Positions 24,995 to 47,277 of a DNA stretch of 48,301 nt are shown here, piece by piece (position 1 is the first letter of the stretch; each line of letters starts with the position of its first letter). The translations under genes were made by a program, and so were the position numbers. Under the pieces are notes generated by a model. It did not search any database. It had not been told where the DNA came from and was given only the letters and a program-made list of their open reading frames with translations. The stretch is from Clostridia bacterium (GTDB lineage Bacteria; Bacillota; Clostridia; Christensenellales; Aristaeellaceae): NCBI GenBank assembly GCA_017465155.1, contig JAFTWV010000049.1, positions 1-48,301 on the forward strand. Reading direction: 5' to 3'.

Positions 24995-25020
24995 TCCGGT
25001 GAACCTCCTTTGCAAAAGAT

Positions 25021-25046
25021 GGGCCCGCCCATCATGGGGCGGGCCC
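25021..25046 (-). promoter_or_regulatory. intercistronic hairpin after the DUF3798 gene
   Basis: GGGCCCGCCC (25021-25030) and GGGCGGGCCC (25037-25046) make a perfect 10-bp GC stem with a 6-base loop, between the binding-protein stop and the ATPase start. There is no long T run, so it is likely an RNA-stabilising or partially terminating element that keeps the binding protein more abundant. Confidence 0.65.
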
Positions 25047-25061
25047 GAGCCTACGCCTGTA

Positions 25062-26201
25062 TTACTTGGCCAGGTAGTCGTTGAAATCGACGGGAGCCAG
25101 CAGGATGGTGTAGTAGTTGTCGAAGGTGGTGCCTTCCGCGTTGGTGTAGTTGGCGACAACAGCGCCCTCGATCTTCGCGTTGAACAGCTCCTTCAGCTTC
25201 GCAGCGTCGTTGCGGCCGGTCAGCTGGCCGTCGATGTAAGCCTTGCCGTACTCAACACCGATCTCGATGATGGTCATGGCAACGGGGGAAGACCAGGTGG
25301 AGAAGCGGCCGGTCGCGCCGTGCTCTTCCAGCTTGGCAGCGATCTGCTTCAGGGCCTCTGCGTCATCGCCGCCCACGGTCAGCTCCAGGCCGAGGGTCGC
25401 GGGGAAGGCATGATAGGGAGAGGGGCAGCAGGGCTGGGGATAGTAAGCATTGGGCTCAGCCAGAACAGCCGCCTGCAGAGAGGGCTGCATGCCGCAGTTG
25501 GTGGTGAAGAAGGCAACCTTCTTGCCAGCGTACTTTTCCATCTGCTGGGGAACATCCTCCAGGATGAACTGCTGGGAAGCGGACAGACCAGCCTCAGCGG
25601 TGGGGTCGGGAGCGGTAACATTGACCAGCTCAATGCCCAGAGCGTCAGCATTCTCCTGCAGCAGCTCGTAACGGCCAACGATCAGCTCCATGGCCATGTG
25701 GCGGGGGAAGGAGTAGTGGATGAACACTTCGATGCCCCACTCAGCGCACTTCTCCATGATGGAGTCGCCCTGAGCGATCTCGTCAGCGTACATGACAACG
25801 TCAGCAGCGGCAGAGATAACAGCGGGATCTTCCTGGGGAGTGCCGGCAACCAGCAGGATGTCGTCACGGCCCATTTCCTTGATCTTGTCGAAAGCAGCCT
25901 TGGTGCCGGGCACAGCCTGGCAAACCACGATGGCCTTCACGTCAGGATCAGAGGCGAAGCCCACGATCTTGGAAACGGTGGTTTCCATCTCGGACATGAA
26001 GTTGTCCGGATAGGTGTCAGTCACAACGTGGTCAGCGCCCCAGGTGGCGATGGCCTTCTCAGCCGCGCGGAATTCTTCCTCGCCCTGAGACACAGTACCG
26101 GTCAGGATAGCGATCTTCCAGGTGGCCTCTTCGGCAACGGCGAAAGCCGTCACGGACAGCAGCATAGCCACAGCCAGAACGAAGCTCAGCAGTTTCTTCA
26201 T
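25062..26201 (-). CDS. DUF3798 periplasmic-type binding protein
   Basis: 379 residues. A signal peptide (MKKLLSFVLAVAMLLSVTAFAVAEE) is cut after an AVA-type site; there is no lipobox cysteine, unlike most binding proteins of monoderm bacteria. The mature part has the two-lobe layout of type I binding proteins: WKIAILTGTVSQGEEEFRAAE at the start, VKAIVVCQAVPGTKAAFDKIKEMGRDD and KVAFFTTNCGMQP in the second lobe. This matches DUF3798. The family is genetically tied to BMP/ribose-type ABC genes, as here; its ligand is not established. GGGAGG precedes the ATG. It is first in the operon with a strong promoter and a hairpin behind it. Confidence 0.88.
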   Translation of the reverse strand: MKKLLSFVLAVAMLLSVTAFAVAEEATWKIAILTGTVSQGEEEFRAAEKAIATWGADHVVTDTYPDNFMSEMETTVSKIVGFASDPDVKAIVVCQAVPGTKAAFDKIKEMGRDDILLVAGTPQEDPAVISAAADVVMYADEIAQGDSIMEKCAEWGIEVFIHYSFPRHMAMELIVGRYELLQENADALGIELVNVTAPDPTAEAGLSASQQFILEDVPQQMEKYAGKKVAFFTTNCGMQPSLQAAVLAEPNAYYPQPCCPSPYHAFPATLGLELTVGGDDAEALKQIAAKLEEHGATGRFSTWSSPVAMTIIEIGVEYGKAYIDGQLTGRNDAAKLKELFNAKIEGAVVANYTNAEGTTFDNYYTILLAPVDFNDYLAK

Positions 26202-28094: not shown

Positions 28095-28634
28095 ATGAAG
28101 ACCTTATGGACATTGTTCCGCGCGTTTTTCACCATCGGCGGACTGACCTTCGGCGGCGGCTATGCCATGCTGCCGATGCTGGAGCGGGAGATCGTCACCA
28201 GACACCGCTGGGCCACAAAAGAGGAGATTCTTGACTACTTCGCCATCGGCCAGTGCACGCCCGGCGTCATCGCCGTCAATACGGCAACCTTTGTCGGCTA
28301 CCGCACCTGCGGCGTCGCAGGCGGCGTCGTTGCGACCCTGGGCGTGGTCTCCCCTTCGCTGATCATTATCACCCTGATTGCCATGGTGCTGGAGCATTTC
28401 ATGGATATTCTCTGGGTGCAGCATGCTTTTGCCGGAATCCGTGTGGCCGTGTGCGCGCTGATCGCCGCCAGCGTGATCAAGCTGTTCAAGTCCAACGTGA
28501 AGAAGCATTGGCACATCGCGCTGGCAGCCGCCGCTTTTGTTGTAGTGGCGTTGTTCAAGCTGTCCCCGGTATATGTGGTGGTGGGCTGCGCGGTGCTGAG
28601 CGTGGTTTTCGGAAAGAAGGTGCATCAGGCATGA
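28095..28634 (+). CDS. chromate transporter, N-terminal half-type subunit
   Basis: 179 residues, one CHR domain with about five or six membrane helices. The signature GGLTFGGGYAMLPMLEREIV, followed by YFAIGQCTPGVIAVNTATFVGY, is typical of the short-chain CHR proteins that occur as adjacent pairs. Paired CHR proteins are annotated as chromate exporters, but in anaerobes the true anion may be different. GAGGAGG precedes the ATG. It overlaps the second half gene by 4 bp. Confidence 0.9.
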   Translation: MKTLWTLFRAFFTIGGLTFGGGYAMLPMLEREIVTRHRWATKEEILDYFAIGQCTPGVIAVNTATFVGYRTCGVAGGVVATLGVVSPSLIIITLIAMVLEHFMDILWVQHAFAGIRVAVCALIAASVIKLFKSNVKKHWHIALAAAAFVVVALFKLSPVYVVVGCAVLSVVFGKKVHQA

Positions 28635-29191
28635 CAGAGCTGCTGACGATCTGTCTGGAATTCCTCAAAACCGGTCTTTTCGCCGTAGGCGGGGGCCTTG
28701 CAACCCTCCCCTTCCTGACGCAGATGCAGCAGACCTACGGCTGGTTCACCGCCGAGGAACTGGCAAACATGATCGCCGTGTCCGAGTCGACGCCCGGCCC
28801 TATTGGCGTGAACATGGCCACCTATGCAGGCTACTCCACCTATGGCATCTGGGGCGGACTGTGCGCCACGCTAAGCCTGATCCTCCCGTCCATCGTCGTC
28901 ATTCTGCTGATCGCACGGGCGCTGGACCGCTATCAGCAGAATCCCTTCGTGCAGAATTTCTTCGCCTTCACCCGTCCCGCCGTGACCGGTTTGATCGCCG
29001 CAGCAGGCTTTCAGGTGCTGCAGATCGCGCTGTTCACGAGGACAGAGGCGCAGCCCATCTCGGTCAACTGGGTGGCCATGGCAATCTTTGCCGTCCTGCT
29101 GACGCTGACACAGTTCAAACAGCTCAAGAAGGTGCACCCCATCGCCTACATCGCCGTGGGCGCAGTGCTCGGCATCCTGCTGAAGATGTAA
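28631..29191 (+). CDS. chromate transporter, C-terminal half-type subunit
   Basis: 186 residues, the second CHR domain of the pair. The start ATG at 28631 overlaps the stop of the first gene (ATGA). The motif LKTGLFAVGGGLATLPFLTQM and MIAVSESTPGPIGVNMATYAGY repeat those of the partner, with six likely helices. Opposite membrane orientation of the two halves is the known arrangement and would give a functional heterodimer; I did not verify topology here. A strong terminator follows. Confidence 0.9.
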   Translation: MTELLTICLEFLKTGLFAVGGGLATLPFLTQMQQTYGWFTAEELANMIAVSESTPGPIGVNMATYAGYSTYGIWGGLCATLSLILPSIVVILLIARALDRYQQNPFVQNFFAFTRPAVTGLIAAAGFQVLQIALFTRTEAQPISVNWVAMAIFAVLLTLTQFKQLKKVHPIAYIAVGAVLGILLKM

Positions 29192-29303: not shown

Positions 29304-29376
29304 AACTGTAAACCATCGCGAAAACAACTGTGAATTTTCTTGAATAACGGCCGGTTTTCACTTTCCCTTCACAGTT
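29304..29376 (+). promoter_or_regulatory. three-copy AACTGTRAA motif upstream of the adaptor cluster
   Basis: AACTGTAAA occurs at 29304-29312, AACTGTGAA at 29326-29334 (22 bp later, two helical turns) and its perfect inverse TTCACAGTT at 29368-29376, just ahead of the -35 position of the cluster promoter. Two direct copies on the same helix face plus an inverted one suit a response-regulator or similar activator. No regulator gene is in the window. Confidence 0.45.
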
Positions 29377-29379
29377 CCG

Positions 29380-29408
29380 TCACGGGACGATGAAGCGTCC
29401 TCTATACT
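29380..29408 (+). promoter_or_regulatory. promoter of the adaptor/MacB cluster
   Basis: TATACT at 29403-29408 is a good -10. The -35 position (TCACGG, 29380-29385) is poor, and the spacer holds a small stem (GGACG/CGTCC, 29385-29400). A weak -35 fits dependence on an activator. The start codon is about 54 bp further on. Confidence 0.5.
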
Positions 29409-29461: not shown

Positions 29462-30715
29462 GTGCAAAAACAAAGATCCGGCAGGAAGAAGCGGCGGTTC
29501 CTGCGCCGCAGCCTGTCGCTGGCGCTTCTGACCGGCGTGATCCTGCTTGGCAGAAGCTTCCTCGCCCCACTCCTTGGCGGTACGGAGATCGAGACCTACG
29601 CCAGCTACACCGTTACACGAGGCGACATCAGGACATACAAAAGCTTCAGCGCATCCATCAGCGTCCTGAACAGCGAAACCCACACCAACACCTCCGGTGC
29701 AGAGTCCATCCGCGAATTGTACGTAACGGCCGGGCAGGAAGTCAAAGAGGGCGACAAGCTGATGCTGCTGGACAACGGCGAGCTGCTCAAAGCCGGTCTG
29801 GACGGCGTGGTCAATCAGATGCGCTACGACACCAGCGATGCGCTGTGGCGCAATGTCCAGCTGATCGAAATCAGCGACCTGACACACCTGCGCGTCTCCC
29901 TGTCGGTGGATGAATACGACGTGCGCGGCGTAGCTCCCGGCCAGCCGTGTACCGTGAGCATCCTCCCGCTGGGCGTCTCCTTTGAAACGGAGATTGAGCA
30001 TGTGAACCGCGTATCCGCCTCCTCCGGTCAGATAGCCTATTATACCGCCACGGCTGAATTGACCGTACCGCCAAGCGTGCTCCCCGGCATGTCCGCCAGC
30101 GTGTCCATCCCGGACAGCGCAGTCAGCGATGTTCTCACTCTGGACATGAAGGCTCTCGCCTTTGACGAGGACAAGCAGCCCTATGTGCTGCTGAAGCAGC
30201 AGGACGCTTATGTCCGGCAACCGGTTGCCACCGGTTTAAGCGATGGCATGACCGTGGAGATCGTCAGCGGATTGCAGGAAGGCGACGTCGTCTGGGCTGT
30301 GTCCGGCACGGAAACCGTCGACGGCGGCCTCACCCTGACCGGGCTGTACAAGAAGCTGGTCGGCGAAAAGGTCGTGATCAACAACGCAGAGGGCAGCAGC
30401 CGTAGTAATACACGTTCCGGCAGCGACGCTTCCCGCAGCGGCATGTCCTTCCCTGCAGACGGCAGCTTTTTGCGGGACGGCGACGCTGCTCCGGCTGAAG
30501 AAGAAGGCACAGCCGCACCAGGCGAATCTGCACCCGGACCAGACGACACGGCGTCCGGAAGCCGCACCCCGGGCCGCAGCGGCTCAGGAAGCCGGAGCAG
30601 CGGTATGGCAACCGGCAGCGATCTTCCCGGCGAATCCCCCACCCGAACCGAACGCAGCAGACCTGATGGCAGCGTTATCCCCCGCGGCAATGAAGAAAGG
30701 ACGGACCCGCAATGA
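29462..30715 (+). CDS. membrane-anchored HlyD/MacA-like adaptor 1
   Basis: 417 residues. It starts at GTG 29462 with GGAGG 10 bp upstream. A basic N-terminus (KQRSGRKKRRFLRR) and one helix (about 17-36) anchor it. The folded part (about 45-300) has a split lipoyl/barrel-sandwich (SIRELYVTAGQEVKEGDKL ... DGVVNQMRY) and beta-barrel domains (LRVSLSVDEYDVRGVAPGQPC, LPGMSASVSIP), as in MacA-type adaptors but without the long helical hairpin. Residues about 310-417 are a Ser/Gly/Pro/Arg-rich tail predicted to be disordered. It is a clear paralogue of the adaptor at 34374 and should dock on the MacB-like permease. First gene of the seven-gene unit. Confidence 0.85.
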   Translation: MQKQRSGRKKRRFLRRSLSLALLTGVILLGRSFLAPLLGGTEIETYASYTVTRGDIRTYKSFSASISVLNSETHTNTSGAESIRELYVTAGQEVKEGDKLMLLDNGELLKAGLDGVVNQMRYDTSDALWRNVQLIEISDLTHLRVSLSVDEYDVRGVAPGQPCTVSILPLGVSFETEIEHVNRVSASSGQIAYYTATAELTVPPSVLPGMSASVSIPDSAVSDVLTLDMKALAFDEDKQPYVLLKQQDAYVRQPVATGLSDGMTVEIVSGLQEGDVVWAVSGTETVDGGLTLTGLYKKLVGEKVVINNAEGSSRSNTRSGSDASRSGMSFPADGSFLRDGDAAPAEEEGTAAPGESAPGPDDTASGSRTPGRSGSGSRSSGMATGSDLPGESPTRTERSRPDGSVIPRGNEERTDPQ

Positions 30716-31749
30716 AAAAACTGATTTCCTTCCTGCTTTGCATGTTGTTTGTATGCCCAGCGCTCGCAGAAGAGCGGTTTGACGGCCAGGTGATCGCCGG
30801 CGAAGCTGTCAGCGTCATCGCGCCCTTTGGCGGCACAATAGAGTCGATCAACCTGCGGACAGGCGCGCTGACGTCGGTGAACGACGTGGTGGCAAGGCTG
30901 GCCACAACCCGCGTTCTGGCCAGCGAGGACGGCACCATCCGCGGCATATTCAGCGGCGAAGGAGACGCTGCCTCCGGCACGGTTCTGTACCTTGCGCCCC
31001 TGGGGAAATATACCATTTCCGCCAGCATCGCCAAGGCCTATGAATCCGCATCCACCAAATATGTGACCATCGGCGAGAAGGTCTATATCCGCTGCAGCAA
31101 GGATGGCAGCCACCGCGCCGAAGGAGTAATCAGTGCCGTAAAAGGCAGCAGCTACACCGTATACACCACCGCAGGCGAGCTTTATATGGAAGAAACGGTG
31201 AACATCTACCGCAGCAGCGATTACAGCTCCCGCGCATGCATCGGCAGCGGTTCCGTTTCCCGTACGGACGCATTGGCAGTCAGCGGCAAGGGCGTGATTC
31301 TCCGCATGCACGTCAAGGACGGCGATATGGTTGAGCGCGGTCAGCTGCTCTTCGAGACCGTCGACGGCCAAACAGACGGCATGGTTTTTACCGACAGCTG
31401 CATCCGCTCCACCGCAGCGGGCGTCGTTGCCGAAATGAAGGTGAAGGCCGGCCAGCAGGTCAGCAAGGACGACGTACTCATGACCGTTTATCAGCCTGAT
31501 GATTATCAGATTCAGATCAGCGTCCCCGAGGACATGCTTTTCACCCTGCAGCCCGGAAGCCCCTGCTCCATCTATTTCAGCTGGAACGAGGGAGAAGGCA
31601 AGCCCTATGAAGGCGTGATCCGCGAAATTTCCTATATGAGCAATGCCCCTGCAGGCAGCAGCGGTGAAACGACATACAATGCATATGTTGACTTTCAGGC
31701 AGATGAGACCGTTCGTCTGGGCATGAACGTCACCGTCGTGCTGCCGTAA
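30712..31749 (+). CDS. secreted HlyD-like protein 1
   Basis: 345 residues. A cleavable signal peptide (MKKLISFLLCMLFVCPALAEE, AxA site) sends it outside; no membrane anchor or lipobox follows. It has two lipoyl-like halves (APFGGTIESINLRTGALTSVNDVVARL and LRMHVKDGDMVERGQLLFETV ... GVVAEMKVKAGQQVSKDDVLMTVY) and a final beta-barrel segment (AYVDFQADETVRLGMNVTVVLP). It closely resembles the protein at 37338 (shared SxTKYVxIGExVYI, ETVxIYRSS, HVKDGDxVxRGxLLFETV). The start overlaps the previous stop (ATGA). Soluble adaptor-like proteins of this kind could link or stack with the anchored adaptors; that role is inference. Confidence 0.8.
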   Translation: MKKLISFLLCMLFVCPALAEERFDGQVIAGEAVSVIAPFGGTIESINLRTGALTSVNDVVARLATTRVLASEDGTIRGIFSGEGDAASGTVLYLAPLGKYTISASIAKAYESASTKYVTIGEKVYIRCSKDGSHRAEGVISAVKGSSYTVYTTAGELYMEETVNIYRSSDYSSRACIGSGSVSRTDALAVSGKGVILRMHVKDGDMVERGQLLFETVDGQTDGMVFTDSCIRSTAAGVVAEMKVKAGQQVSKDDVLMTVYQPDDYQIQISVPEDMLFTLQPGSPCSIYFSWNEGEGKPYEGVIREISYMSNAPAGSSGETTYNAYVDFQADETVRLGMNVTVVLP

Positions 31750-31764
31750 GAAAGGAGAGATTCC

Positions 31765-34371
31765 GTGAAAAAGCTGCTCTCCATGATCATGGCGCTGACC
31801 ATCTGCCTGCTTTCCAGCTGTGCAGGGGCCGACACACTCACTACGCCAACCGATATGGCCTCCTCTGCCGACACATCCGTCAGCACATCCGAAGAACCTG
31901 CTGCACCTTATGATCCCTCTGCAAGTGCGGAACCTGCTGCAACGGAAGAGCCCGCCGCAGAGACGCCCCCTGCCGCTGAACAGCCAGACAGCACTCCTGC
32001 CGTCCCTGTCTCCACGCCGGATGACGGGCCCCTGTATGTGCTGCTGAACGGTGAAAAGCTGTACGGTGAGCCCGATCAGCTGATTCCCATGGGGCTGGTG
32101 ATCTACCTGTATCACAGCCGCGTCGTCGAACTGACCGGCTATACGCCCGAAATGCTTGCAGATGTGCAGTTTGCGCTTGATCCCGATGTGTTCAAAGGCA
32201 GCAAATACTGCGTCAACCTGTCCGCTCTTGACCCGGACGGCTTTGCAAAGCAGAATACGCTCTTCCTCTGGGCCGGCCGGAAGGACCAGTCGCCCGACAC
32301 ATCCGCAGATATGGACAGCGTGGCGGATGCCGATGAAGTCACCGAGCATGAAATCCTTGTTTCTGCGCAGCGGTATACCGCTGACGCCCCCTGCACCCCG
32401 ACCTTCGGGCTGTCCGCTGTACCTGAGATGGAGGACGGCATGTCCTTCGCAGTCATCGTAAACGACGGCGATGCCCAGCGTCTTGCAGGCAACAGCTACA
32501 CGCCCTCCCGCTCCGGTACATACCGCTTCGTGCTGCTTGCTTCCGACGGCTCTCAACTGCATCGCTCCGCCCCTTACAACGTGACGCTTCCATCCGCGCC
32601 GTCTCCCACTGCCACTCCAAAGTCGAAGTTTTCCAGCGGATTCGCTATTGTGCCGCATGCGACGCCCACGGTTTCCCCGGAGGCGACCGCGGAGCCTGCC
32701 ATTTCTCCCGAAGTGTCCCGCACTGCTGCGCCAACGTCCAAGCCTGCCACAACTCCGGCCGCCCAGCCCACCGCTGCGCCGACGGGCACTCCGGCTGCCG
32801 ACCGCACCGCCAAGCCCATCTCCGGCTTTGGCACCGCTGCACCGGCCACGCCGACGCTGACCGCCGTGCCGCCCATGGGTGATCCGACCGCCGTGCCTTC
32901 CGCCGCGCCTGAGGCAACCGACGCACCCGCCATCCTGCAGGCATGGGCAGAAACCGAAGACGGCCGCATAAATGGCGAGCTTTCGCAGCTGCTCCTGACG
33001 GATGCTGACGTGATCTACATCCTGACAGACCGGATCATCGTGCTGGACAGCGGCAACGCCCAGCTTTCCGGCAAGACGCTGCTGCCTGATCCCGAGCGCT
33101 TCGGCAATGATTATATTGTCCGTATTTCCGGCGAGAACGAGGATGTGGAGCGCAGTGAATCTCTGTTCGTCTGGCTGGAAATGAAGGGTCAGAAGGACGA
33201 GACGCCCGTCAGTCTGTCCGTATCCGCTGCGGGGCATGCAGAAGCCGCCTGGGTCACTGCCGCACCCCGATTCCTCCTGACTGCCCAGCCTGATCTGGCC
33301 GCACTGGGCGACGGCTACGTCTATGCCGTTTCCATCGACGGCGGCACGCCCATCCTGCTCGCCAGCGGCGAATATACTGCCGCGGAGGAAGGACAGTACG
33401 CGCTGCAGTTCCATCTGCTTGCCCCCGACGGCAGCGCAGTGGCGGTGTCTGCCGTGTACACCGTCTGGCTGGACGCCGCTGCGCCGCTGGTGCAGATCAA
33501 GGCCGGCGCTTCGGGCACATTGCAGATCACCGCAGGCGACGCACTCAGCGGCGGTGACGCTGTGTCCATGGACGGCGGCGCAACATGGCTGCCCCTCACC
33601 CCCGGCGAAGGTTCAGTAAGCACCTATACCTATACCACCAAGCAGACCGTAACCTTCCCCAGGGAAAGCATCATCGTACGCGACCAGGCCGGTAATCAGA
33701 CTGTGTACCCGGAGGAAGTGACCGTACGGATCATGTCCGGCAGCCGCGGCGGCAGCTCCAGCCGCAGCACCAGTCATTCGGAATCCACGACAGATACCGT
33801 TGTCGCATATGACGGCGTGGAACTCACCCTGACCACCGGCAAAATGTCCCAGCTGAAGGTCGGCGGTGAAATGATGGAGCTTTCGCTGCAATACAACGGC
33901 ACGGACGCATCCCGCAGGGCAAGCACGCCCACTTTCACCGCCAGCTTCATCAACCTGACCAGATCCAGCGAGAAGAATACCCTCATGCTCGTCGCCAGCG
34001 ATGCGACCGCCGCGGACGCCGGGGATTACACATGGTTCTTCTCCGGTCAGGTGTGCAAGAAGCTTTCGGTCTCAGGCATCGAATACATCATGCTGCGCAT
34101 TGAAGACGAGGTGACGCTGCTGCCTACATCCGGCTTCTCCGCCGGGCTGCGCTACAACATGTGCCGTGCCGAGGGACTGGTCAGCAAGGACTTCAGCTAT
34201 GCCGTCCGCATGGGCCTGGAGGATTACGCCATGGAGCTGGATGTGACTGTCGCTGAAAGCACCTACCGCATGAGTAATGATCCCAACGCGGAGTTCTATT
34301 ATTATGACGTGTTCACCGGCCCCATTGAAGCCCTCGAATGGCTGCTCACAACTTATGGAAAGATCGGGTGA
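31765..34371 (+). CDS. large putative lipoprotein with duplicated module, Ig-like and C-terminal beta domains
   Basis: 868 residues. Signal peptide with a possible lipobox (LLSSC, Cys19). Low-complexity Thr/Ala/Pro linkers (about 24-86 and 275-392) separate two copies of one module: 88-275 and 393-570. Matching landmarks are DPDVFKGSKYCVNLSALD / DPERFGNDYIVRISGENE, NTLFLWAGRKDQSP / ESLFVWLEMKGQKDETP and SGTYRFVLLASDGSQL / EGQYALQFHLLAPDGSAV. Residues 571-657 read as a bacterial Ig-like domain (ending RDQAGNQTVYPEEVTV). A Ser-rich linker (658-676) leads to a C-terminal beta domain (677-868). GAAAGGAGAG precedes the ATG. It lies inside the adaptor unit, so it may be the exported surface partner or cargo-binding part. 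No known family recognised. Confidence 0.8.
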   Translation: MKKLLSMIMALTICLLSSCAGADTLTTPTDMASSADTSVSTSEEPAAPYDPSASAEPAATEEPAAETPPAAEQPDSTPAVPVSTPDDGPLYVLLNGEKLYGEPDQLIPMGLVIYLYHSRVVELTGYTPEMLADVQFALDPDVFKGSKYCVNLSALDPDGFAKQNTLFLWAGRKDQSPDTSADMDSVADADEVTEHEILVSAQRYTADAPCTPTFGLSAVPEMEDGMSFAVIVNDGDAQRLAGNSYTPSRSGTYRFVLLASDGSQLHRSAPYNVTLPSAPSPTATPKSKFSSGFAIVPHATPTVSPEATAEPAISPEVSRTAAPTSKPATTPAAQPTAAPTGTPAADRTAKPISGFGTAAPATPTLTAVPPMGDPTAVPSAAPEATDAPAILQAWAETEDGRINGELSQLLLTDADVIYILTDRIIVLDSGNAQLSGKTLLPDPERFGNDYIVRISGENEDVERSESLFVWLEMKGQKDETPVSLSVSAAGHAEAAWVTAAPRFLLTAQPDLAALGDGYVYAVSIDGGTPILLASGEYTAAEEGQYALQFHLLAPDGSAVAVSAVYTVWLDAAAPLVQIKAGASGTLQITAGDALSGGDAVSMDGGATWLPLTPGEGSVSTYTYTTKQTVTFPRESIIVRDQAGNQTVYPEEVTVRIMSGSRGGSSSRSTSHSESTTDTVVAYDGVELTLTTGKMSQLKVGGEMMELSLQYNGTDASRRASTPTFTASFINLTRSSEKNTLMLVASDATAADAGDYTWFFSGQVCKKLSVSGIEYIMLRIEDEVTLLPTSGFSAGLRYNMCRAEGLVSKDFSYAVRMGLEDYAMELDVTVAESTYRMSNDPNAEFYYYDVFTGPIEALEWLLTTYGKIG

Positions 34372-34373
34372 CA

Positions 34374-35381
34374 ATGATGACCAGCCCTGTAAAAAAGAAA
34401 AAGAAACGCTTCCGCTTTCTGAAAAAGCTGCTGATCTGGGCCATCGTGCTGCTGCTTGCCGCCGGTGCATTCTTCCTGCTCGTGCTTCCGAAGCTGGAGG
34501 CGGGAGCGACCACCACCTATAACAGCTATACCGCCCGCATCGGCACCATCTCCAACGCGCTGAGCTTCTCCGGCTCCATTCAGGTGCAGAACAACGAGAC
34601 CATCACCGCCGGCGCAGCAGGCACGGTACGCCAGATCTACGTCGCCGAGGGCGAGAAGGTCGTACGCGGCCAGCGCCTGATCCGCCTTTCCACGGGCGAA
34701 ACCGTCAAGGCCAGCTTCGACGGCGAGGTCAATCAGATCAGCGTTGAGGTCGGCGATGACGTGAACGCCAACGGCAGCCTCATTCAGATCGTCGATTTTG
34801 AAAAGATGGAGGTCTCCATGCGCGTGGACGAGTATTCCATCTCCGATCTGCAGCTCGGGCAGGAATGCCGCATCACCGTCACCGCGCTGGGGGAAACCTT
34901 TGAGTCACGGATCTCCCACATCAACCGTATTCCCTCCGGCGGCGGCAACACAGCCTATTACACCGTGACCGCCGAGCTGACAGTCAGCCCCGACGTCCTG
35001 CCCGGCATGGCTGCAACGGTCACCATTCCTCAGGAGGAGGCCGTCGATTCGGTCATCCTGAATAAGAACGCACTCTCCTTCGGCCGTGACAACAGCGCAT
35101 ATGTACTGATGTATGATGCAAATCAGACCCTGCAGCAGGTGCCGGTTACCGTCGGGCTGGACAACGACAGCTACGTGGAGATCACCTCCGGCCTGAAGGA
35201 CGGCGACACCGTGTACGCACAGGTCGCATCCAGCACAGGCAGCACCAGCCTGTTCTCCTCCCTCTTTTCCAACATGGGCGGCGGCGGAAGCTCGCAGACG
35301 CCCAGCCGCAACAGCCAGACCAACCGCACCGCGCCCGGCGGCTACGGTGGTTATGGCGGTGGATACGGCGGCGGACGTTAA
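34374..35381 (+). CDS. membrane-anchored HlyD/MacA-like adaptor 2
   Basis: 335 residues. Basic N-terminus (VKKKKKRFRFLKK), one anchor helix (about 18-37), split lipoyl domain (GTVRQIYVAEGEKVVRGQRLIRL ... ASFDGEVNQISVEVGDDV) and beta-barrel (MRVDEYSISDLQLGQECRITV, LPGMAATVTIP). The last 35 residues are Gly/Ser/Gln then Gly-Tyr-rich (GGYGGYGGGYGGGR). It aligns along its length with adaptor 1. The start is one of two adjacent ATG codons 2 bp after the stop of the previous gene; the ribosome binding site is poor, suggesting coupling. Directly followed by the MacB ATPase gene, it is the most likely partner of that transporter. Confidence 0.88.
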   Translation: MMTSPVKKKKKRFRFLKKLLIWAIVLLLAAGAFFLLVLPKLEAGATTTYNSYTARIGTISNALSFSGSIQVQNNETITAGAAGTVRQIYVAEGEKVVRGQRLIRLSTGETVKASFDGEVNQISVEVGDDVNANGSLIQIVDFEKMEVSMRVDEYSISDLQLGQECRITVTALGETFESRISHINRIPSGGGNTAYYTVTAELTVSPDVLPGMAATVTIPQEEAVDSVILNKNALSFGRDNSAYVLMYDANQTLQQVPVTVGLDNDSYVEITSGLKDGDTVYAQVASSTGSTSLFSSLFSNMGGGGSSQTPSRNSQTNRTAPGGYGGYGGGYGGGR

Positions 35382-35394
35382 GGGGGAACAGTGC

Positions 35395-36093
35395 ATGAAT
35401 GATATCTTCTTTCAGATGCGAAAAATCGTCAAACAGTACCCCCTTGGCGACGAGGTTTCCACCGTGCTCAGGGACGTCGATCTGGACGTTCAGGAGGGCG
35501 AGTACCTGTCCGTGCTGGGCCCCTCCGGCTCCGGCAAATCCACGCTGATGAACATCATCGGCTGCCTCGACCTGCCCACCTCCGGCGAATACATCCTGCG
35601 CGGTCAGTCCGTAGAGGAGCTGGACGAAATGGAGCTGGCCCACATCCGCCGCCGGGAGATCGGCTTCATCTTCCAGAACTCTCAGATGCTCAAACGCATG
35701 GACGCGCTGAAGAACGTGGAGCTCCCGCTGATCTACGCCGGCGTATCTCCCCGCGAACGCGCCCGACGGGCCGAGGAGATGCTGGTCAAGGTCGGCCTGC
35801 AGGATCGCCTGCATCACTTTCCCAACCAGCTTTCCGGTGGTCAGCAGCAGCGCGTCGCCATCGCTCGCGCACTGGTGACCCGTCCCAGCCTTCTGCTGGC
35901 CGACGAGCCCACCGGCGCGCTCGACCAGTCCACAGGCAAGCAGATCATGGCCCTCTTCAGCGAGCTGAATGCCGACGGTCACACCATCATCATGATCACC
36001 CATGACATCAACATCGCCAAACACGCCAAACGGGTCGTCAACATCATCGACGGCGTACTGAGCGAACCAAAGGGCGAGGTGACCTTCGCATGA
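35395..36093 (+). CDS. MacB/LolD-type ABC ATPase
   Basis: 232 residues, standard for the stand-alone ATPase of MacB-type systems. Walker A is GPSGSGKST (42-50), Q-loop FIFQNSQML, signature LSGGQQQRVAIARAL, Walker B LLLADEPTGALD and His-loop MITHDINIAK. It drives conformational change of the FtsX-type permease rather than classical import. The start at 35395 has AGGGGGAAC upstream; the earlier in-frame ATG lies within the preceding gene. It overlaps the permease gene by 4 bp. Confidence 0.95.
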   Translation: MNDIFFQMRKIVKQYPLGDEVSTVLRDVDLDVQEGEYLSVLGPSGSGKSTLMNIIGCLDLPTSGEYILRGQSVEELDEMELAHIRRREIGFIFQNSQMLKRMDALKNVELPLIYAGVSPRERARRAEEMLVKVGLQDRLHHFPNQLSGGQQQRVAIARALVTRPSLLLADEPTGALDQSTGKQIMALFSELNADGHTIIMITHDINIAKHAKRVVNIIDGVLSEPKGEVTFA

Positions 36094-37310
36094 TCAATCC
36101 ATTCCGCCCCCTGATTGCCGGCATCAATATGTTCGTGGAAAGCCTGCGCATGGCCATTGCGAACATCACGGCCAACAAGCTCCGTTCCTTCCTGACGATT
36201 CTGGGCATCATGATCGGCGTCACGGCAGTCATCGCCCTGATCACCACCATTTCCGGCGTTTCCTCCTCCATTTCTGATTCCTTTACCTCCATGGGCGCGG
36301 GCAGCATCACCGTCTCCACGCCCGGCAGCGACCTGAAAAGCGGCTTGAGCAGCGAGGATCTGGACGACATCGCCGCCCTTGAAAACGTACAGGGCGTTAC
36401 ACCCAGCGTGAGCCTGTCCGTCAAGGCGGCCCGCAACGGCGTCAGCGAAACCGGTATCACCGTCTCCGGCGTGAACGAATACTACTTCATCAACAAGCCC
36501 GACGCGCTGGAATCCGGCCGCAGCATCAACCCCATCGACATTGCAGATATGTCCCGCGTTTGCATGATCGGCAGCGACGTGATGGAAAGCTTCTTCTACG
36601 GCGTGAACCCCATCGGCCAGACAATCTATCTGGCAGGCGTACAGTTCACCGTCGTGGGCATTCTTGCGGAGGATACGGATACCTCCATCGCCAGCATCAT
36701 GTCCGGCACGCCCGATATCCTCATGCCCTATACCACCGCCATGAAGATGAACAGCCAGAACCTTGTCACCGGCATCACCGTGTACATGAACAACCCGGAT
36801 GATACCGAGGACGTCAAGACGCTGCTGGAGGAACATCTGGACGCGCTTTTCAGCTTTGAGGACGACACCTACACCATCACCACCATGGAAAGCATCGAAT
36901 CCACCATGGACACCATGCTTTCCATGATGTCAGCGCTGCTGGCGGGCATCGCCTCCATCGCGCTGATCGTGGGCGGCATCGGCATCATGAACATGATGCT
37001 CACCTCCGTCACCGAACGAACGGTAGAGATCGGCCTGAAGAAGGCCATCGGCGCAGAGCCCGGGCAGATCCAGATTCAGTTCCTGATCGAATCCTTCCTG
37101 CTGTCGATGATCGGCGGCGTGACGGGCGTTGTGCTGGGCCTTGTGGTATCGGCCGCCATGTGCTCGGTCATGGGCACCAACTTTACCATCAATTACGGCG
37201 CAATCGCGCTGGGCGTGGGCTTCTCGGCAGCAGTGGGCATCATCTTCGGCTGGAGTCCCGCACGCAAAGCCAGCAAGCTCAGTCCCATCGACGCGCTCAG
37301 GCGGATGTAA
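36090..37310 (+). CDS. MacB-type ABC permease
   Basis: 406 residues. It has a first membrane helix (about 33-55, LTILGIMIGVTAVIALI), an extracytoplasmic domain of about 220 residues, and three C-terminal helices (SMMSALLAGIASIALIVGGIGIM, FLLSMIGGVTGVVLGLVVSAAM, ALGVGFSAAVGIIFG), the FtsX/MacB architecture. The cytoplasmic segment ERTVEIGLKKAIGAEPGQI contacts the ATPase. Such mechanotransmission transporters move lipids, peptides or antibiotics with help from an adaptor. It overlaps the ATPase gene by 4 bp and is followed 27 bp later by the second secreted HlyD-like protein. Confidence 0.95.
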   Translation: MINPFRPLIAGINMFVESLRMAIANITANKLRSFLTILGIMIGVTAVIALITTISGVSSSISDSFTSMGAGSITVSTPGSDLKSGLSSEDLDDIAALENVQGVTPSVSLSVKAARNGVSETGITVSGVNEYYFINKPDALESGRSINPIDIADMSRVCMIGSDVMESFFYGVNPIGQTIYLAGVQFTVVGILAEDTDTSIASIMSGTPDILMPYTTAMKMNSQNLVTGITVYMNNPDDTEDVKTLLEEHLDALFSFEDDTYTITTMESIESTMDTMLSMMSALLAGIASIALIVGGIGIMNMMLTSVTERTVEIGLKKAIGAEPGQIQIQFLIESFLLSMIGGVTGVVLGLVVSAAMCSVMGTNFTINYGAIALGVGFSAAVGIIFGWSPARKASKLSPIDALRRM

Positions 37311-37337
37311 TATCATCGAATATAAGGAGGCACCCAA

Positions 37338-38456
37338 ATGAAGAAAATCCTGGCAATCCTGATGTTCCTGACGCTCCTGCCCGTTGCTGCGCTGGCGGAG
37401 ACTACCTTCGACGGCACAGTCGTGGCCGGCGACGCAGTGACGGTGACCGCACCCTTTGGCGGTACGGTCACCGGCTTCAGCCTGCGCGCCGGCAGCAAGA
37501 TCGCCATGGGCGACGTTGTTGCAGCCATCGGCACCACCAAGGTCTATGCATCTGCGGACGGCACCATCGCGGGCGTCTTTGCCCAGGAAGGCGACACCAT
37601 CGACAGCGTTACCAGCCGCTGGGGCGCGGTGATGTACATCATGCCCACCCACAAGTACACCATCACCGCCGACATCGAAAAAGCCTACAATTCCAGCGAG
37701 ACCAAGTATGTCAACATAGGCGAAACAGTCTATATCGCCTGTACTGCCGGGAACGACCACAAGGCTGTGGGCGTCGTGACCGCCGCCAGCGGCAACACCT
37801 ACACCGTAGAGACAACCTCCGGCACGCTGATGCTGGATGAAACGGTCTCCATCTACCGCTCCTCCGGCTATGCTGCGAACAGCCGTATCGGCCGCGGCAC
37901 GGTAGGCCGCACACAGGAGATCGCTGTGAATGGCAGCGGCAGCATCCTCAAGCTCCACGTCAAGGACGGAGACAAGGTTTCCCGCGGCGACCTGCTGTTT
38001 GAGACGGTCACCGGCACGCTGGACGGCCTCTACGCCGTGGGCAGCGAGGTTGTCTCCACGGTCAGCGGCGTGGTAGCCTCCGTAAACACCTCTTCCGGCT
38101 CCAACGTCAGCAAGGGCGATATCCTCCTCACCGTATACACCATGGACACCCTTCAAATCGAAATCAGCGTCAACGAATACGACCTGATGGCCATCTCCGA
38201 GGGCGATACAGTCAACATCACCTTCAATTACAATCCCGATGCGCCTGCCCAGCTGACCGGCGTCGTCTCCATGATCTCCCACCTGAGCTCATCGCAGGAC
38301 GGTGAAGCCACCTACCTTGCCTACGTCGACTTCGTACCGGATGACAACGTCCGCATCGGCATGACCGCTGTCGTCACCACCATCGACGAGCAGCCTTCGG
38401 CCGGAGAACACGCCATGACCGAGGATGCGCCTGACGCCGCAACGCCCGCCGCATAA
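37338..38456 (+). CDS. secreted HlyD-like protein 2
   Basis: 372 residues. Signal peptide MKKILAILMFLTLLPVAALAE (AxA site, no lipobox). Two lipoyl-like halves (APFGGTVTGFSLRAGSKIAMGDVV; LKLHVKDGDKVSRGDLLFETV ... GVVASVNTSSGSNVSKGDILLTVY) and a beta-barrel end (AYVDFVPDDNVRIGMTAVVTT), followed by an acidic tail of about 20 residues (GEHAMTEDAPDAATPAA). Paralogue of the protein at 30712. AAGGAGG precedes the ATG. Last gene of the unit; a terminator follows at 38471. Confidence 0.82.
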   Translation: MKKILAILMFLTLLPVAALAETTFDGTVVAGDAVTVTAPFGGTVTGFSLRAGSKIAMGDVVAAIGTTKVYASADGTIAGVFAQEGDTIDSVTSRWGAVMYIMPTHKYTITADIEKAYNSSETKYVNIGETVYIACTAGNDHKAVGVVTAASGNTYTVETTSGTLMLDETVSIYRSSGYAANSRIGRGTVGRTQEIAVNGSGSILKLHVKDGDKVSRGDLLFETVTGTLDGLYAVGSEVVSTVSGVVASVNTSSGSNVSKGDILLTVYTMDTLQIEISVNEYDLMAISEGDTVNITFNYNPDAPAQLTGVVSMISHLSSSQDGEATYLAYVDFVPDDNVRIGMTAVVTTIDEQPSAGEHAMTEDAPDAATPAA

Positions 38457-38524: not shown

Positions 38525-39235
38525 TTAGTTGCCCAGATATGCCTTGCGCACGTCATCATCGTGCAGCAGGTCGTCTGCCAGACCAGACTTGATGACCCTG
38601 CCGGTTTCCAGCACATACGCACGGTCAGCGATGGACAGTGCCATCTGCGCGTTCTGCTCGACCAGCAGAATGGTTACGCCCGCTGCATGGAGCTCCGTGA
38701 TGATGTCAAAGATTTGCTCCACCAGAATGGGCGCCAGACCCATCGAAGGCTCGTCCAGCATCAGCAGGCGGGGCTTGGACATCATCGCCCGGGCGATGGC
38801 CAGCATCTGCTGCTCGCCGCCGGAAAGAGTGCCCGCAATCTGCTTTTCACGTTCCTTCAGACGGGGGAAGCGCTCGAACATCTCCTCGATGGAGCCGGGG
38901 ATCTCCGCCGCAGGACGGGTGTAGCCGCCCATTTCGAGGTTCTCGCGAACCGTCATCTGCTGGAAGATGCGCCGTCCCTCGGGACACAGTGCCATGCCCA
39001 GCGACACAGTCTTGTTGCAGGGAGTAGCAACGAGGTTCTTGCCATCAAAGGTCATTGTACCCGTACGGGGACGCAGGAGGCCCGCAATGGTATTCAGCGT
39101 AGTGGACTTGCCGGCGCCGTTCGCACCAATCAGCGTCACAATCTCGCCCTCGTTGACCTCAAAGCTGATGCCCTTGATGGCATGAATCGCGCCATAGTAT
39201 ACGTTGATGTCATCAATTTTGAGCAGGCTCATCAC
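38525..39235 (-). CDS. livF: branched-chain amino-acid ABC ATPase LivF
   Basis: 236 residues, LivF length. Walker A GANGAGKST, signature LSGGEQQMLAIARAM, Walker B LLMLDEPSMGLAP, and the LivF-specific beginning INVYYGAIHAIKGISFEVNEGEIVTLIG. One of the two ATPases powering uptake of Leu/Ile/Val or related amino acids. Its start overlaps livG by 4 bp. Last gene of the operon. Confidence 0.93.
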   Translation of the reverse strand: MMSLLKIDDINVYYGAIHAIKGISFEVNEGEIVTLIGANGAGKSTTLNTIAGLLRPRTGTMTFDGKNLVATPCNKTVSLGMALCPEGRRIFQQMTVRENLEMGGYTRPAAEIPGSIEEMFERFPRLKEREKQIAGTLSGGEQQMLAIARAMMSKPRLLMLDEPSMGLAPILVEQIFDIITELHAAGVTILLVEQNAQMALSIADRAYVLETGRVIKSGLADDLLHDDDVRKAYLGN

Positions 39236-40095
39236 TCTACCTCCTTATGCTGGGAACCGAGGTAGGCCTCGATGACCACAGGATTGGACTGGATTTCATC
39301 CGGCGTTCCCTTGGCGATGATCCGGCCATAGTTCAGCACGCAAATGCCCTCACAGATGCCCATAACCAGATTCATGTCATGCTCGATCAGCATGACGGCA
39401 ATCTGGAACTGATCGCGGATCTTGATGATATTCTGCATCAGTTCTTCCGTCTCATGGGGGTTCATACCAGCCGCAGGCTCGTCCAGCAGCAGCAGGGACG
39501 GATTGGTCGCCAGCGCACGGACGATTTCCAGGCGACGCTGGGCGCCATAGGGCAGGCTGCCGGCCTTCACATTCGCCATGTCCTGCATGCCGAAGATGCT
39601 CAGCAGGTCAAGCGCCTTTTCATGCTGCTTCTTCTCACCCTGCCAGAACTGGGGCAGACGCAGGATGCCGGAGAACATGCCGTAGCGGATCTGGTTGTGC
39701 AGGCCGATGCGCACGTTGTCCTCCACGGTCATGTTGGAGAACAGGCGGATATTCTGGAACGTACGGGCAATACCCATTCGGTTGGCCTGCTCGGTATTCA
39801 TGCCGGAGGTGTCCTTGCCGTTGATGAGCACAGTGCCGGTTGTGGGCTGATACACCTTGGTCAGCAGGTTAAAAACGGTGGTCTTACCTGCGCCGTTAGG
39901 GCCGATGAGGCCGCAGATCTCCGTCGGACCGACGGCAATATTGAAGTCCTCTACCGCCTTCAGGCCGCCGAATTCGATGCCCAGATGACGGGTTTCAAGC
40001 ACAGGGCGCTTGTCAACGTCGCGCTCCGGAACGATGGATTGGCTGGGCACCGGCACCATCTTGGTGTCGAGCAGTCGCTTCTTGGGCTGGGTCAT
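39232..40095 (-). CDS. livG: branched-chain amino-acid ABC ATPase LivG
   Basis: 287 residues, about 25 longer than usual because of an N-terminal extension before LETRHLGIEFGGLKAVEDF. Walker A GPNGAGKTT, signature LPYGAQRRLEIVRAL, Walker B LLLLDEPAAGMNPHE. LivG signatures include GIARTFQNIRLFSNMTVEDNV. The extension (MTQPKKRLLDTKMVPVPSQ) has no evident domain; an internal start is possible, but the first ATG is in ATGA overlap with livM. Confidence 0.93.
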   Translation of the reverse strand: MTQPKKRLLDTKMVPVPSQSIVPERDVDKRPVLETRHLGIEFGGLKAVEDFNIAVGPTEICGLIGPNGAGKTTVFNLLTKVYQPTTGTVLINGKDTSGMNTEQANRMGIARTFQNIRLFSNMTVEDNVRIGLHNQIRYGMFSGILRLPQFWQGEKKQHEKALDLLSIFGMQDMANVKAGSLPYGAQRRLEIVRALATNPSLLLLDEPAAGMNPHETEELMQNIIKIRDQFQIAVMLIEHDMNLVMGICEGICVLNYGRIIAKGTPDEIQSNPVVIEAYLGSQHKEVE

Positions 40096-41168
40096 GCAGC
40101 GTCACCTGCCTTTCCGGATTTGGCTTTACGCCCACTGAGCAGCGCCTTGATTTTCCCGGTGATGCTGCTCAGCACACTCTTCATCATCGGGCTGTTGGTC
40201 GCCAGCATGACGAGGATCAGCACGATGGCATACACCAGCATGCGATAGGTGCTGAAGGAACGCAGGAGCTCGGGCAGGAGCGTCAGCAGGGCAGCGGCGA
40301 TAATAGAGCCGCGGATGTTGCCGATGCCGCCCAGCACCACAAACACCAGCACCAGAATAGAGGTATCAAACTTGAACTTCGCCGCCGTAACGGTGGAGTA
40401 GTTCAGGCCGTAGAGCGCGCCCGCCATGCCTGCCAGCACCGCAGAGGTCACGAAGGCCATCATCTTGTACTTCGTCACGTTCAGGCCAACGGATTCTGCC
40501 GCGATGCGGCTGTCACGGATGGCCATGATCGCACGGCCGGAACGGCTGTTGATCAGGTTCAGCACCACGAACAGCGTGAAGAGAATCAGCACAAAGCCCA
40601 TCTCGAAGGTCGCGATCTTATCCACACCCACTGCGCCCGCAGGACCGTTGTAGACAATCTTGCCGGTCAGATTGGGGTTGTTGAAGCCGATATGCAGCGC
40701 CTTGCCGTCAACGGAGAAATACAGCGTGTTGAGCACATTACGGATGATCTCGCCAAAGGCCAGCGTGACGATGGCGAGGTAATCGCCGCGCAGACGAAGC
40801 ACAGGGATGCCAATCAGCACGCCCGCAATACCTGCAAACACGCCGCCGGCGATCATCGCCAGCAGCAGTCGCACCAGCTCGTTTTCCATCTGGAAGGCAC
40901 TCACCAGCCACGAGGACATGATGATGCCCGAGAACGCGCCGACGCTCATGAAGCCTGCATGGCCAAGGGACAGCTCACCGGAGATGCCGACTGTCAGGTT
41001 CAGCGACACAGCCATCACGATGTACACGCAGATCGGAATCAGCTGACCCTTGAGGGAGCGAGTCATCTTGAAGCCGTCAATGGAGCCGGAAATGGCCACC
41101 TGACACACAATGAAAGCCAAAATGACGATACCATAAGTAATGAGGTTGCTGCGGAGCTTTTTGTTCAT
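40092..41168 (-). CDS. livM: branched-chain amino-acid ABC permease LivM
   Basis: 358 residues, about nine or ten helices. Family segments SLNLTVGISGELSLGHAGFMSVGAF and LRGDYLAIVTLAFGEIIRNVLN are clear, with ALYGLNYSTVTAAKFKFDTSILVLVFVVLGGIGNIRGSIIGAALL-like organisation near the end. The start at 41168 is chosen because GAGGTGA precedes it; an ATG ten codons earlier would overlap the end of livH. It lies 16 bp after livH. Confidence 0.92.
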   Translation of the reverse strand: MNKKLRSNLITYGIVILAFIVCQVAISGSIDGFKMTRSLKGQLIPICVYIVMAVSLNLTVGISGELSLGHAGFMSVGAFSGIIMSSWLVSAFQMENELVRLLLAMIAGGVFAGIAGVLIGIPVLRLRGDYLAIVTLAFGEIIRNVLNTLYFSVDGKALHIGFNNPNLTGKIVYNGPAGAVGVDKIATFEMGFVLILFTLFVVLNLINSRSGRAIMAIRDSRIAAESVGLNVTKYKMMAFVTSAVLAGMAGALYGLNYSTVTAAKFKFDTSILVLVFVVLGGIGNIRGSIIAAALLTLLPELLRSFSTYRMLVYAIVLILVMLATNSPMMKSVLSSITGKIKALLSGRKAKSGKAGDAA

Positions 41169-41184
41169 TTTCACGCTTCTCACC

Positions 41185-42069
41185 TCACACTTTCTCATGG
41201 ATCTTCTTGCCCAGCAGGCCCGTGGGCTTTACCAGCAGCACGATGATCAGCACCGCAAAGACGAATGCGTCACCCAGCTCCATGGAGATGTAGGCCTTGC
41301 CGAGGATTTCGATCACGCCCAGCAGGATACCGCCGACCATCGCACCCGGGATGGAGCCGATGCCGCCGAAGACCGCTGCGGTAAACGCCTTGATGCCCGG
41401 CATGGAGCCGGTGGTGGGCGTCAGCGCCGGATACGCAGTACACAGCAGCACGCCCGCAATCGCCGCCAGCGCAGAGCCGATGGCAAAGGTTACGGAAATG
41501 GTCAGATTGACATTGATGCCCATGAGCTCCGCCGCGCCCTTGTCCTCAGAGACGCCGCGCATGGCCTTGCCCATCTTTGTCCGGGAGGTGAACAGCGTCA
41601 GCGCGATCATGATCACCACGCAGGCAAGGATGGTCACGATAGCCTCGCCCTTGATGATCAGCTCACCGCCCAGCAGGGAGATGGCAGGCACATTGATCAT
41701 ATCCGGGAAGGACTTGGTGTTGGAGCCCCAGATGAGCAGCGCGGAATTCTGCAGCAGGTAGCTCATGCCGATGGCAGTGATCAGCACCGCCAGAGACGTT
41801 GCCTGGCGCAGAGGCTTATAAGCCAGACGCTCGATGACGATGCCCAGCACCGTACAGACGGCCATCGCCGCCACAAGTGCCAGCGCCGGGGGAAGATTCC
41901 AGTAATGAATGGCGCAGAAGGAGATGTACGCGCCGATCATGATCACGTCGCCGTGAGCAAAGTTCAGCATCTTGGCGATGCCGTACACCATCGTGTAGCC
42001 CAGCGCGATGATCGCATACACGCTGCCAAGGCTCAAGCCGTTCATCAGGTGGGAAAGGAGCGATATCAT
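41185..42069 (-). CDS. livH: branched-chain amino-acid ABC permease LivH
   Basis: 294 residues, standard LivH. The N-terminal GLSLGSVYAIIALGYTMVYGIAKMLNFAHGDVIMIGAY is diagnostic, as is the loop MRGVSEDKGAAELMGINVN and FTAAVFGGIGSIPGAMVGGILLG. Eight or so helices form the channel with LivM. It is 117 bp downstream of livK, with a hairpin in the gap. Confidence 0.94.
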   Translation of the reverse strand: MISLLSHLMNGLSLGSVYAIIALGYTMVYGIAKMLNFAHGDVIMIGAYISFCAIHYWNLPPALALVAAMAVCTVLGIVIERLAYKPLRQATSLAVLITAIGMSYLLQNSALLIWGSNTKSFPDMINVPAISLLGGELIIKGEAIVTILACVVIMIALTLFTSRTKMGKAMRGVSEDKGAAELMGINVNLTISVTFAIGSALAAIAGVLLCTAYPALTPTTGSMPGIKAFTAAVFGGIGSIPGAMVGGILLGVIEILGKAYISMELGDAFVFAVLIIVLLVKPTGLLGKKIHEKV

Positions 42070-42132
42070 TCCTTCTCGACCTCGTTTCTTTCATGATAGT
42101 ACGAAGAATGCAATTCTCACAATGACAACAAC

Positions 42133-42166
42133 CGCCCGACTCCCGCAAAACCGCAGGAGTCGGGCG
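42133..42166 (-). promoter_or_regulatory. intercistronic hairpin between livK and livH
   Basis: CGCCCGACTCC (42133-42143) and GGAGTCGGGCG (42156-42166) form a perfect 11-bp stem. On the minus strand the following bases (GTTGTTGTCATTG) are only partly T-rich, so it is probably a partial terminator or 3'-end stabiliser that keeps livK mRNA more abundant than the downstream genes. Confidence 0.7.
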
Positions 42167-42185
42167 CAGACACGCCTGTGTGAGG

Positions 42186-45165: not shown

Positions 45166-45210
45166 CGTTACGGCAGCCTGACCCAGATACAGGGTCGGAC
45201 AAGAGTGTCG
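45135..45210. repeat. 76-bp direct repeat, copy 1 (terminator plus 3' end of gene)
   Basis: By eye, 45135-45210 is identical to 47202-47277. It covers the terminator stem, the stop codon and the last 14 codons or so of the DUF6273 gene (LVRPCIWVRLP). Identity at the third codon positions points to recent duplication or gene conversion. Confidence 0.85.
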
Positions 45211-46604: not shown

Positions 46605-46728
46605 CACTTTCCCCTCTCTCAGATCCTTGAATTTTTCGCTGCCGTGATCAATCAAATACACTTTCACGTCCTCATTACAGGTCACAAAATAGTATTTTTA
46701 TTTTTACACCGCATTGAATCTGAGAAAT

Positions 46729-47228: not shown

Positions 47229-47277
47229 TTTTCGTTACGGCAGCCTGACCCAGATACAGGGTCGGACAAGAGTGTCG
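47202..47277. repeat. 76-bp direct repeat, copy 2
   Basis: Identical by eye to 45135-45210; homology continues at lower identity into both DUF6273 genes. Confidence 0.85.

Follow-up and report, generated by a model that had tools for sequence, protein, structure and literature searches.

In the MacAB-TolC system, a MacB-type permease is combined with an adaptor, MacA, that contains lipoyl and β-barrel domains, and the system is under two-component control, by PhoPQ in Salmonella and E. coli (PMC5985334). The closest described systems of cells with a single membrane, YknWXYZ of Bacillus and Spr0693-0694-0695 of Streptococcus pneumoniae, consist of a separate ATPase, a MacB-type permease and an anchored adaptor, and a nanotube has been described for Spr0693 (PMC5768738). 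According to two reviews from 2015, adaptors of Gram-positive bacteria might have been thought likely to be devoid of the α-hairpin, an expectation that was not borne out and that left the retention of the hairpin puzzling (PMC4446572; PMC4338810). The locus described here lies in a window of 48,301 nucleotides, which is the entire contig JAFTWV010000049.1 of a Clostridia bacterium of the family Aristaeellaceae (assembly GCA_017465155.1; 2.8 Mb, 136 contigs, 68.5% complete). It is a unit of seven genes on the + strand (29462-38456) which encodes one MacB-type transporter (ATP and PERM), two membrane-anchored adaptors without a hairpin (A1 and A2), two exported proteins built as tandems of the adaptor core (S1 and S2) and a large modular protein (LP). 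The interpretation favoured here, with a probability of roughly one half, is that the unit forms one operon for a regulated MacB-type extrusion pump, the outer part of which would be made of hairpin-less rings and wall-zone proteins. No description of the unit was found in the titles and abstract beginnings returned by searches of the open-access literature, a scope outside of which lie most subscription papers and all bioRxiv preprints, and no open-access paper was found that names Christensenellales, ABC transporter and HlyD together.

Adaptors without a hairpin beside a MacB-type transporter

The open reading frame (ORF) list shows one tight block in the order A1-S1-LP-A2-ATP-PERM-S2 (Table 1) in which, with the likely starts, adjacent genes share 4 bases or are separated by no more than 27. 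ATP is an ATP-binding cassette (ABC) ATPase with an ABC_tran domain (PF00005, 1e-34) and with Walker A, signature and Walker B motifs recognised by eye. PERM carries MacB_PCD (PF12704, 6.8e-37) before FtsX (PF02687, 1.3e-20) and has MacB and Spr0695/YknZ among its best structure matches (5lil, 1.2e-80, aligned over profile positions 15-403; 5xu1, 2e-58; 5f9q, 3.3e-12). Judged from its sequence the transporter is MacB-like, and extrusion by it is predicted. HlyD/lipoyl domains were matched by Pfam in A1, S1, A2 and S2, which form two paralogous pairs with 41% identity over 264 amino acids (A1 and A2) and 49% over 349 amino acids (S1 and S2). Anchoring and export were judged by eye from the N-termini: those of A1 and A2 have a basic stretch followed by a hydrophobic helix, those of S1 and S2 a signal peptide that ends with an ALA-E cleavage motif. 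The initial annotation had described a unit of seven genes at these positions, one MacB-type ATPase/permease pair and two anchored and two secreted adaptor-like proteins in two paralogous pairs, and it agrees with the present results in each of these respects.

A1 and A2 are made up of lipoyl and β-barrel domains behind the N-terminal anchor, and MacA and BesA are the top structural matches of the adaptors. When A2 is aligned with MacA, residue 102 pairs with 89 and residue 111 with 186, leaving 8 residues of A2 (103-110) against 96 of MacA (90-185). The best match of A2 is the hairpin-less BesA, which aligns with residues 55-297 in one colinear stretch, and the hairpin site is free of inserts in all 28 adaptor rows of the alignment (one row, L087, carries 11 additional residues at a later point). 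As the α-helical hairpin between the two lipoyl halves is missing, A1 and A2 are not canonical MacA proteins. In a scan of the class, 134 of 245 genomes gave a match to A (E up to 1e-15), and among the matches listed most start at about residue 90-136, a pattern that an interrupting hairpin would produce. Outside the family, six genomes (G522, G440, G564, G466, G570 and G581) match A nearly from its start in one stretch, and at least two more rows (G528 and G519) cross the hairpin site without room for a hairpin.

The N-terminal and C-terminal halves of S are repeats of each other (hhalign 98.5%, E 1.7e-15), and the second half is closer to A2 (99.7%, E 5.3e-27 by profile comparison). HlyD_3 and Biotin_lipoyl were matched in all 40 S members of the alignment. 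S2 was the sole protein modelled, as a monomer, with a mean predicted local distance difference test score of 88.8 (at least 90 in 275 of 372 residues) and a predicted template modelling score of 0.69; the model is nearly all-β and has no helix longer than 8 residues past the signal peptide. By these profiles S1 and S2 are tandems of the hairpin-less adaptor core, so that the adaptor fold suspected earlier in the two exported proteins is recovered. The ring contacts of EcMacA involve E231, Y276 and T293 (PMC8277102). Mapped by hand through the A2-MacA and S-A alignments, the Glu is found in 27/28 A rows and the Tyr in 28/28, one residue off in the pairwise alignment, while the S rows have Glu in 37/40, Tyr in 33/40 and Thr/Ser in 30/40.

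Genome scans for S, in which the best 8 (order) or best 6 (class) candidates per genome were scored, gave 18 of 248 genomes of the order passing E 1e-20, namely 11 of Aristaeellaceae and seven others at 74-99 bits over part of the model. In the class, the threshold was reached by 2 of 341 genomes, one of them the genome of the window and the other scoring 77 bits. Matches of at least 249 bits were found solely in Aristaeellaceae, and S is likely absent outside this family.

The family appears to be a lineage without an outer membrane, judged from the lack of two marker families. In a search limited to these two markers, TolC-like PF02321 and Omp85 PF01103, none of 40 genomes of the family gave a match; 24 of the 40 have a completeness of 90% or more. 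Among 14 control genomes, the same seven were positive for each marker, namely those of E. coli, Caulobacter, Synechococcus, Thermus, Deinobacterium, Bacteroides and Thermotoga. Gram stain alone is no proof of an outer membrane. Gram-stain-negative cells have been reported for relatives, Aristaeella included (PMC12694931). The initial annotation was right that the unit has no outer-membrane channel gene; the view of this absence as an anomaly was rejected, as it is what the family genomes lead one to expect.

Locus types, gene history and surroundings

The distribution of the unit was followed in 71 loci (L numbers) obtained by scanning genomes with two peptide patterns of S2-type proteins, several of which are the same records as some of L066-L105. 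ORF calling and labels were mechanical and typing was scripted, and the ratio of types among the 71 loci is biased, as they were found via S2-type patterns. Carriers include Candidatus Pullichristensenella, Faecaligallichristensenella, Ventricola, Faecivicinus, Fimadaptatus and Alectryocaccomicrobium, genera which we take to be placed in Aristaeellaceae by GTDB, and other Clostridia. Within the family, an S2 match is present in 117 of 150 genomes (E up to 0.001; other adaptors included) and an LP match in 61 of 150, part of these being low-complexity matches.

Loci that hold an A1 gene were called type I. The seven genes stay together in other genomes to a degree beyond chance, a check that the initial annotation had suggested: 12 of the 14 type I loci have all of them in the same order, the exceptions being L146, which is without LP, and L156, where no S2 is found in the 674 bases left to the contig end. 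A2 is present in 14/14 of these loci, which were picked by A1, and two further type I-like loci (L121 and L126) are cut with A1 out of view. Type II comprises 11 loci with the order A2-ATP-PERM-S2-LPlike-S1, plus L171 with the first four genes only. Type III (35/71 loci) is defined by solute-binding-like or MalF-like genes, and 8/71 loci are too short for typing.

In 20 of the 35 type III loci the order is LP, S, solute-binding-like protein(s), MalF-like, MalG-like, HlyD-like and MacB_PCD permease; the other 15 have fewer parts, many at stretch ends (not checked singly), or another order (L175). In L078:601-11099, L132, L136, L167 and others, LP and one S-lineage protein are followed by one to three large solute-binding-like proteins, named by eye (one was scanned, with no Pfam match), then by a pair of BPD_transp_1 permeases, an HlyD-like protein in which a helical insert was recognised by eye, and the MacB_PCD permease. 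No FtsX domain was matched in the two such permeases scanned, and no matching ATPase gene is labelled inside the cluster (L147 has ABC ATPase genes further on). The possibility that the adaptors occur elsewhere with unrelated neighbours, raised in the initial annotation, is therefore realised in part: S does lie beside a sugar-type importer, yet again together with LP and often with a MacB-like permease. The LP-type gene and the S gene adjoin in types I, II and III alike.

A tree of 96 S rows (IQ-TREE, midpoint root) unites S2 of type I, the S that comes first in type II and every S of type III in one clade of 67 rows (support 100/99), outside of which fall type I S1 and the S at the end of type II. 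The S1 side does not form a single supported clade, and two type I S1 rows, L122 and L125, join the S at the end of type II. From these clades both S lineages probably predate the split of types I and II. A1 forms one clade (15 rows, approximate likelihood ratio support SH-aLRT 100) apart from all A2 (29 rows). As S1 and S2 are distinct lineages even in the six-gene relatives and A1 has its own clade, the duplications in A and S look ancient. The duplication of an adaptor pair proposed in the initial annotation holds as paralogy; a recent tandem duplication is rejected on the strength of both trees. Compared with the closest relative, L116, identity is 87% for ATP, 86% for PERM, 80% for S2, 74% for A2, 71% for S1, 64% for A1 and 57% for LP, a pattern in which, on this one comparison, the core parts are held and the outward parts drift.

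LP has two copies of one module (residues 80-290 and 385-580; 30% identity over 192 amino acids, hhalign 99.9%). Its immunoglobulin (Ig)-like stretch is weak, with a Big_13 match in 2 of 32 members. Of the 22 alignment columns that are invariant or nearly so, 17 fall in its C-terminal domain, which is about 200 residues long. No confident Pfam match was obtained, and the best match to PDB sequences (E 0.0018) was discarded, falling by position in a low-complexity N-terminal stretch. Of the "large modular lipoprotein" of the initial annotation the modules are confirmed and the lipid anchor is doubtful, as LSSC is directly followed by AGA-D, which would suit a type I cleavage site, and a loose lipobox is present in only 5 of 15 type I relatives.

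The Pfam-named neighbours of the unit are chromate-transporter and branched-chain amino acid transporter genes: a split chromate-transporter pair lies at 28095-29191 (+) and a branched-chain amino acid ABC transporter set at 38525-43319 (-). Very long frames run antisense to the unit at 30208-33414 (-; 1068 amino acids) and 36930-38282 (-; 450 amino acids), which are probably an effect of codon composition and not genes. Further away, a DUF3798 protein at 25065-26201 (-) adjoins an ATPase with two ABC domains at 23390-25159, and two proteins with C-terminal DUF6273 lie near the contig end at 45171-46685 (-) and 47238-48026 (-). Rfam and tRNA scans of the window gave no match, and a consensus scan of it found 5 promoters and 8 terminators against shuffle means of 3.4 and 6.6.

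Table 1. Genes of the unit and the upstream repeat, with coordinates in the window
Feature	Coordinates	Strand	Description
Upstream repeat	29357..29383	+	putative OmpR/PhoB-type operator, TTCAC-N6-TTCAC-N6-GTCAC, 11-bp period, starts 105 bp before A1
A1	29462..30715	+	membrane-anchored hairpin-less adaptor; long low-complexity C-terminal tail (tail by eye)
S1	30712..31749	+	exported tandem barrel-sandwich/β-barrel protein
LP	31765..34371	+	large protein, exported or lipid-anchored; two copies of a module, spacers rich in Pro/Thr
LP, further parts			weakly Ig-like stretch, Gly-rich linker, conserved C-terminal domain
A2	34374..35381	+	membrane-anchored hairpin-less adaptor; start at 34374 picked by eye in an ORF that opens at 34338
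ATP	35395..36093	+	ABC ATPase; ORF opens at 35347, start 35395 picked by eye
PERM	36090..37310	+	MacB-type permease (MacB_PCD + FtsX)
S2	37338..38456	+	exported tandem barrel-sandwich/β-barrel protein; structure modelled

Regulation and proposed function

Direct repeats with an 11-bp period are the usual form of sites for the OmpR/PhoB family. Such a repeat is present in 11 of 15 type I upstream regions, the window included (shuffles: mean 0.39, maximum 2), the pattern having been picked after viewing the window and its relatives; it occurs in 2/11 type II and 0/19 type III upstream regions. Other periods from 7 to 15 give at most 3/15 type I regions. No second site for the triple repeat was found in the assembly with up to one mismatch, and as the triple pattern was built from the site itself, only this lack of a second site is informative. 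A divergent kinase and/or regulator gene adjoins 6/14 type I and 3/12 type II loci, the view in L123 being limited to the regulator. The domains matched in L067 are Response_reg and Trans_reg_C for the regulator, and HisKA and HATPase_c for the kinase. Some type I loci may have such a pair beyond the sequence at hand, as six of them have just 860 to 1434 bases upstream.

The gene neighbourhoods also bear on two other explanations. The unit could export a product of its own, such as a surface polymer, lipid or peptide, instead of toxic compounds; a large wall-type LP is part of the operon, and MacB systems are known to export own products as well (PMC5985334). This is unlikely. Among the neighbour clusters of 40 loci of all types the only ones in more than two pump loci, besides parts of the unit, are the kinase and the regulator, a weak argument against it in that two-locus clusters were left unannotated. 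Alternatively, the unit might be no transporter at all and act as a mechanotransmission switch, FtsEX-like or Bce-like, for the remodelling or sensing of wall or surface via A, S and LP. FtsX and BceB, which share the MacB fold, do act as such switches (PMC5985334), and the unit has many exported partners, but in the one neighbouring kinase that was scanned nothing sensor-like was matched besides HisKA and HATPase_c, and Pfam recognises no wall hydrolase among the seven proteins; a switch is very improbable.

In the extrusion pump proposed here, ATP hydrolysis would drive mechanotransmission in the permease dimer, and A2, with or without A1, would make a hexameric ring on the extracellular domain of the permease. 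S1 and S2 could form or join further rings stacked on it, or bind the emerging substrate, between membrane and wall, with LP positioning the assembly in the wall and an OmpR-type two-component system controlling the operon. Its likeliest job would be to extract envelope-active compounds, e.g. antimicrobial peptides or other amphiphiles, from the membrane and to discharge them at a distance from it. Mechanotransmission by MacB and the Gram-positive relatives have been discussed before, and a similar job has been proposed for YknXYZ and Spr0693-0695 (PMC5985334; PMC4887032; PMC5768738). The assignment of substrates is a guess by analogy with these two systems and from the regulation.

Several observations weigh against the extrusion pump. 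Taken alone, the N-terminal part of the alignment between A2 and MacA is weak (i-Evalue 0.95), and of the three ring residues T293 is not conserved in A, where 25/28 rows have Gln/Ala at this site. In the window no two-component genes adjoin the unit, and the best match to the regulator in its own, incomplete assembly is only 40% identical. Neither LP nor S2 seems strictly required, as one type I locus lacks the former and one the latter. The type III loci speak for a role of S and LP that is wider than the pump, and the S-LP module is not tied to a MacB pump, as it also lies beside the importer. In addition, in five of the six genomes outside the family that match A in one stretch, the loci (L228-L231 and L233, from other Clostridia families) combine a hairpin-less adaptor, an ATPase (a short frame of 159 amino acids in L229) and a permease, with no S or LP in the stretch; the sixth, L232, is cut. 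S and LP are hence not needed to offset the lost hairpin, and S as a simple substitute for the hairpin is rejected. A related operon, L234, has an adaptor with an insert of about 94 residues at the hairpin site and forms with L228-L231 and L233 a natural pair for the function of the hairpin.

In another explanation, S1, S2 and LP would be wall-zone substrate-binding or receptor proteins that hand their cargo to the adjacent pump (types I and II) or importer (type III). LP-type and S genes adjoin in all three layouts, including beside solute-binding-like proteins and BPD_transp_1 permeases, and pump operons without them exist. Set against this, S mostly keeps residues which make ring contact in MacA, and no binding domain is recognised in LP by Pfam. 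Such a receptor role is possible and on the doubtful side. A bolder extension of the pump would be a modular conduit across the wall, built of stacked hairpin-less β rings with anchored A, detachable S1 and S2 and a wall-spanning LP, in which S-LP would serve export when mounted on the MacB pump of types I and II, and uptake when mounted on the sugar-type importer of type III with its ATPase-less MacB-like permease; this is decidedly unlikely.

The unit is a conserved MacB system with two hairpin-less anchored adaptors and exported tandem copies of their core, in a family in which no outer-membrane marker was found, and it makes the role of adaptors outside of a two-membrane envelope directly testable. 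Natural comparisons are offered by the three-, six- and seven-gene versions and by L234 with its insert at the hairpin site.

Comparison with known systems

The unit differs from MacAB-TolC in that it has neither hairpin nor TolC, encodes ATPase and permease in separate genes, contains two adaptors, and adds S1, S2 and LP. From YknWXYZ and Spr0693-0694-0695 it differs in the adaptors, which in these systems possess the α-hairpin, unlike A1 and A2 (PMC4446572; PMC5768738), and of which they have only one where the unit has two. YknW is a Yip1 protein (PMC4887032), and no Yip1 match was obtained by Pfam in the seven proteins.

BesA of the BesABC system of Borrelia, the best single-sequence structural relative of A2, is likewise hairpin-less (PMC3807786), but BesABC is a resistance-nodulation-division (RND) pump with an outer-membrane duct and one adaptor. 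The statement of the initial annotation that known MacAB systems have one adaptor can stand with the addition that exceptions occur outside MacAB, in TriABC with two adaptors and in DSY0927 with a fused pair (PMC4338810). TriABC-OpmH of Pseudomonas resembles the unit in having two paralogous adaptors (36% identity) per transporter and differs from it by its RND transporter and its outer membrane; exported tandem proteins are not mentioned for it in the available text of that source (PMC4338810). DSY0927 of Desulfitobacterium hafniense is a fused adaptor pair in a Gram-positive ABC system, with an N-terminal half without coiled coil (PMC4338810). By comparison with this description, S1 and S2 are unanchored, hairpin-less in both halves, and paired beside separate anchored adaptors.

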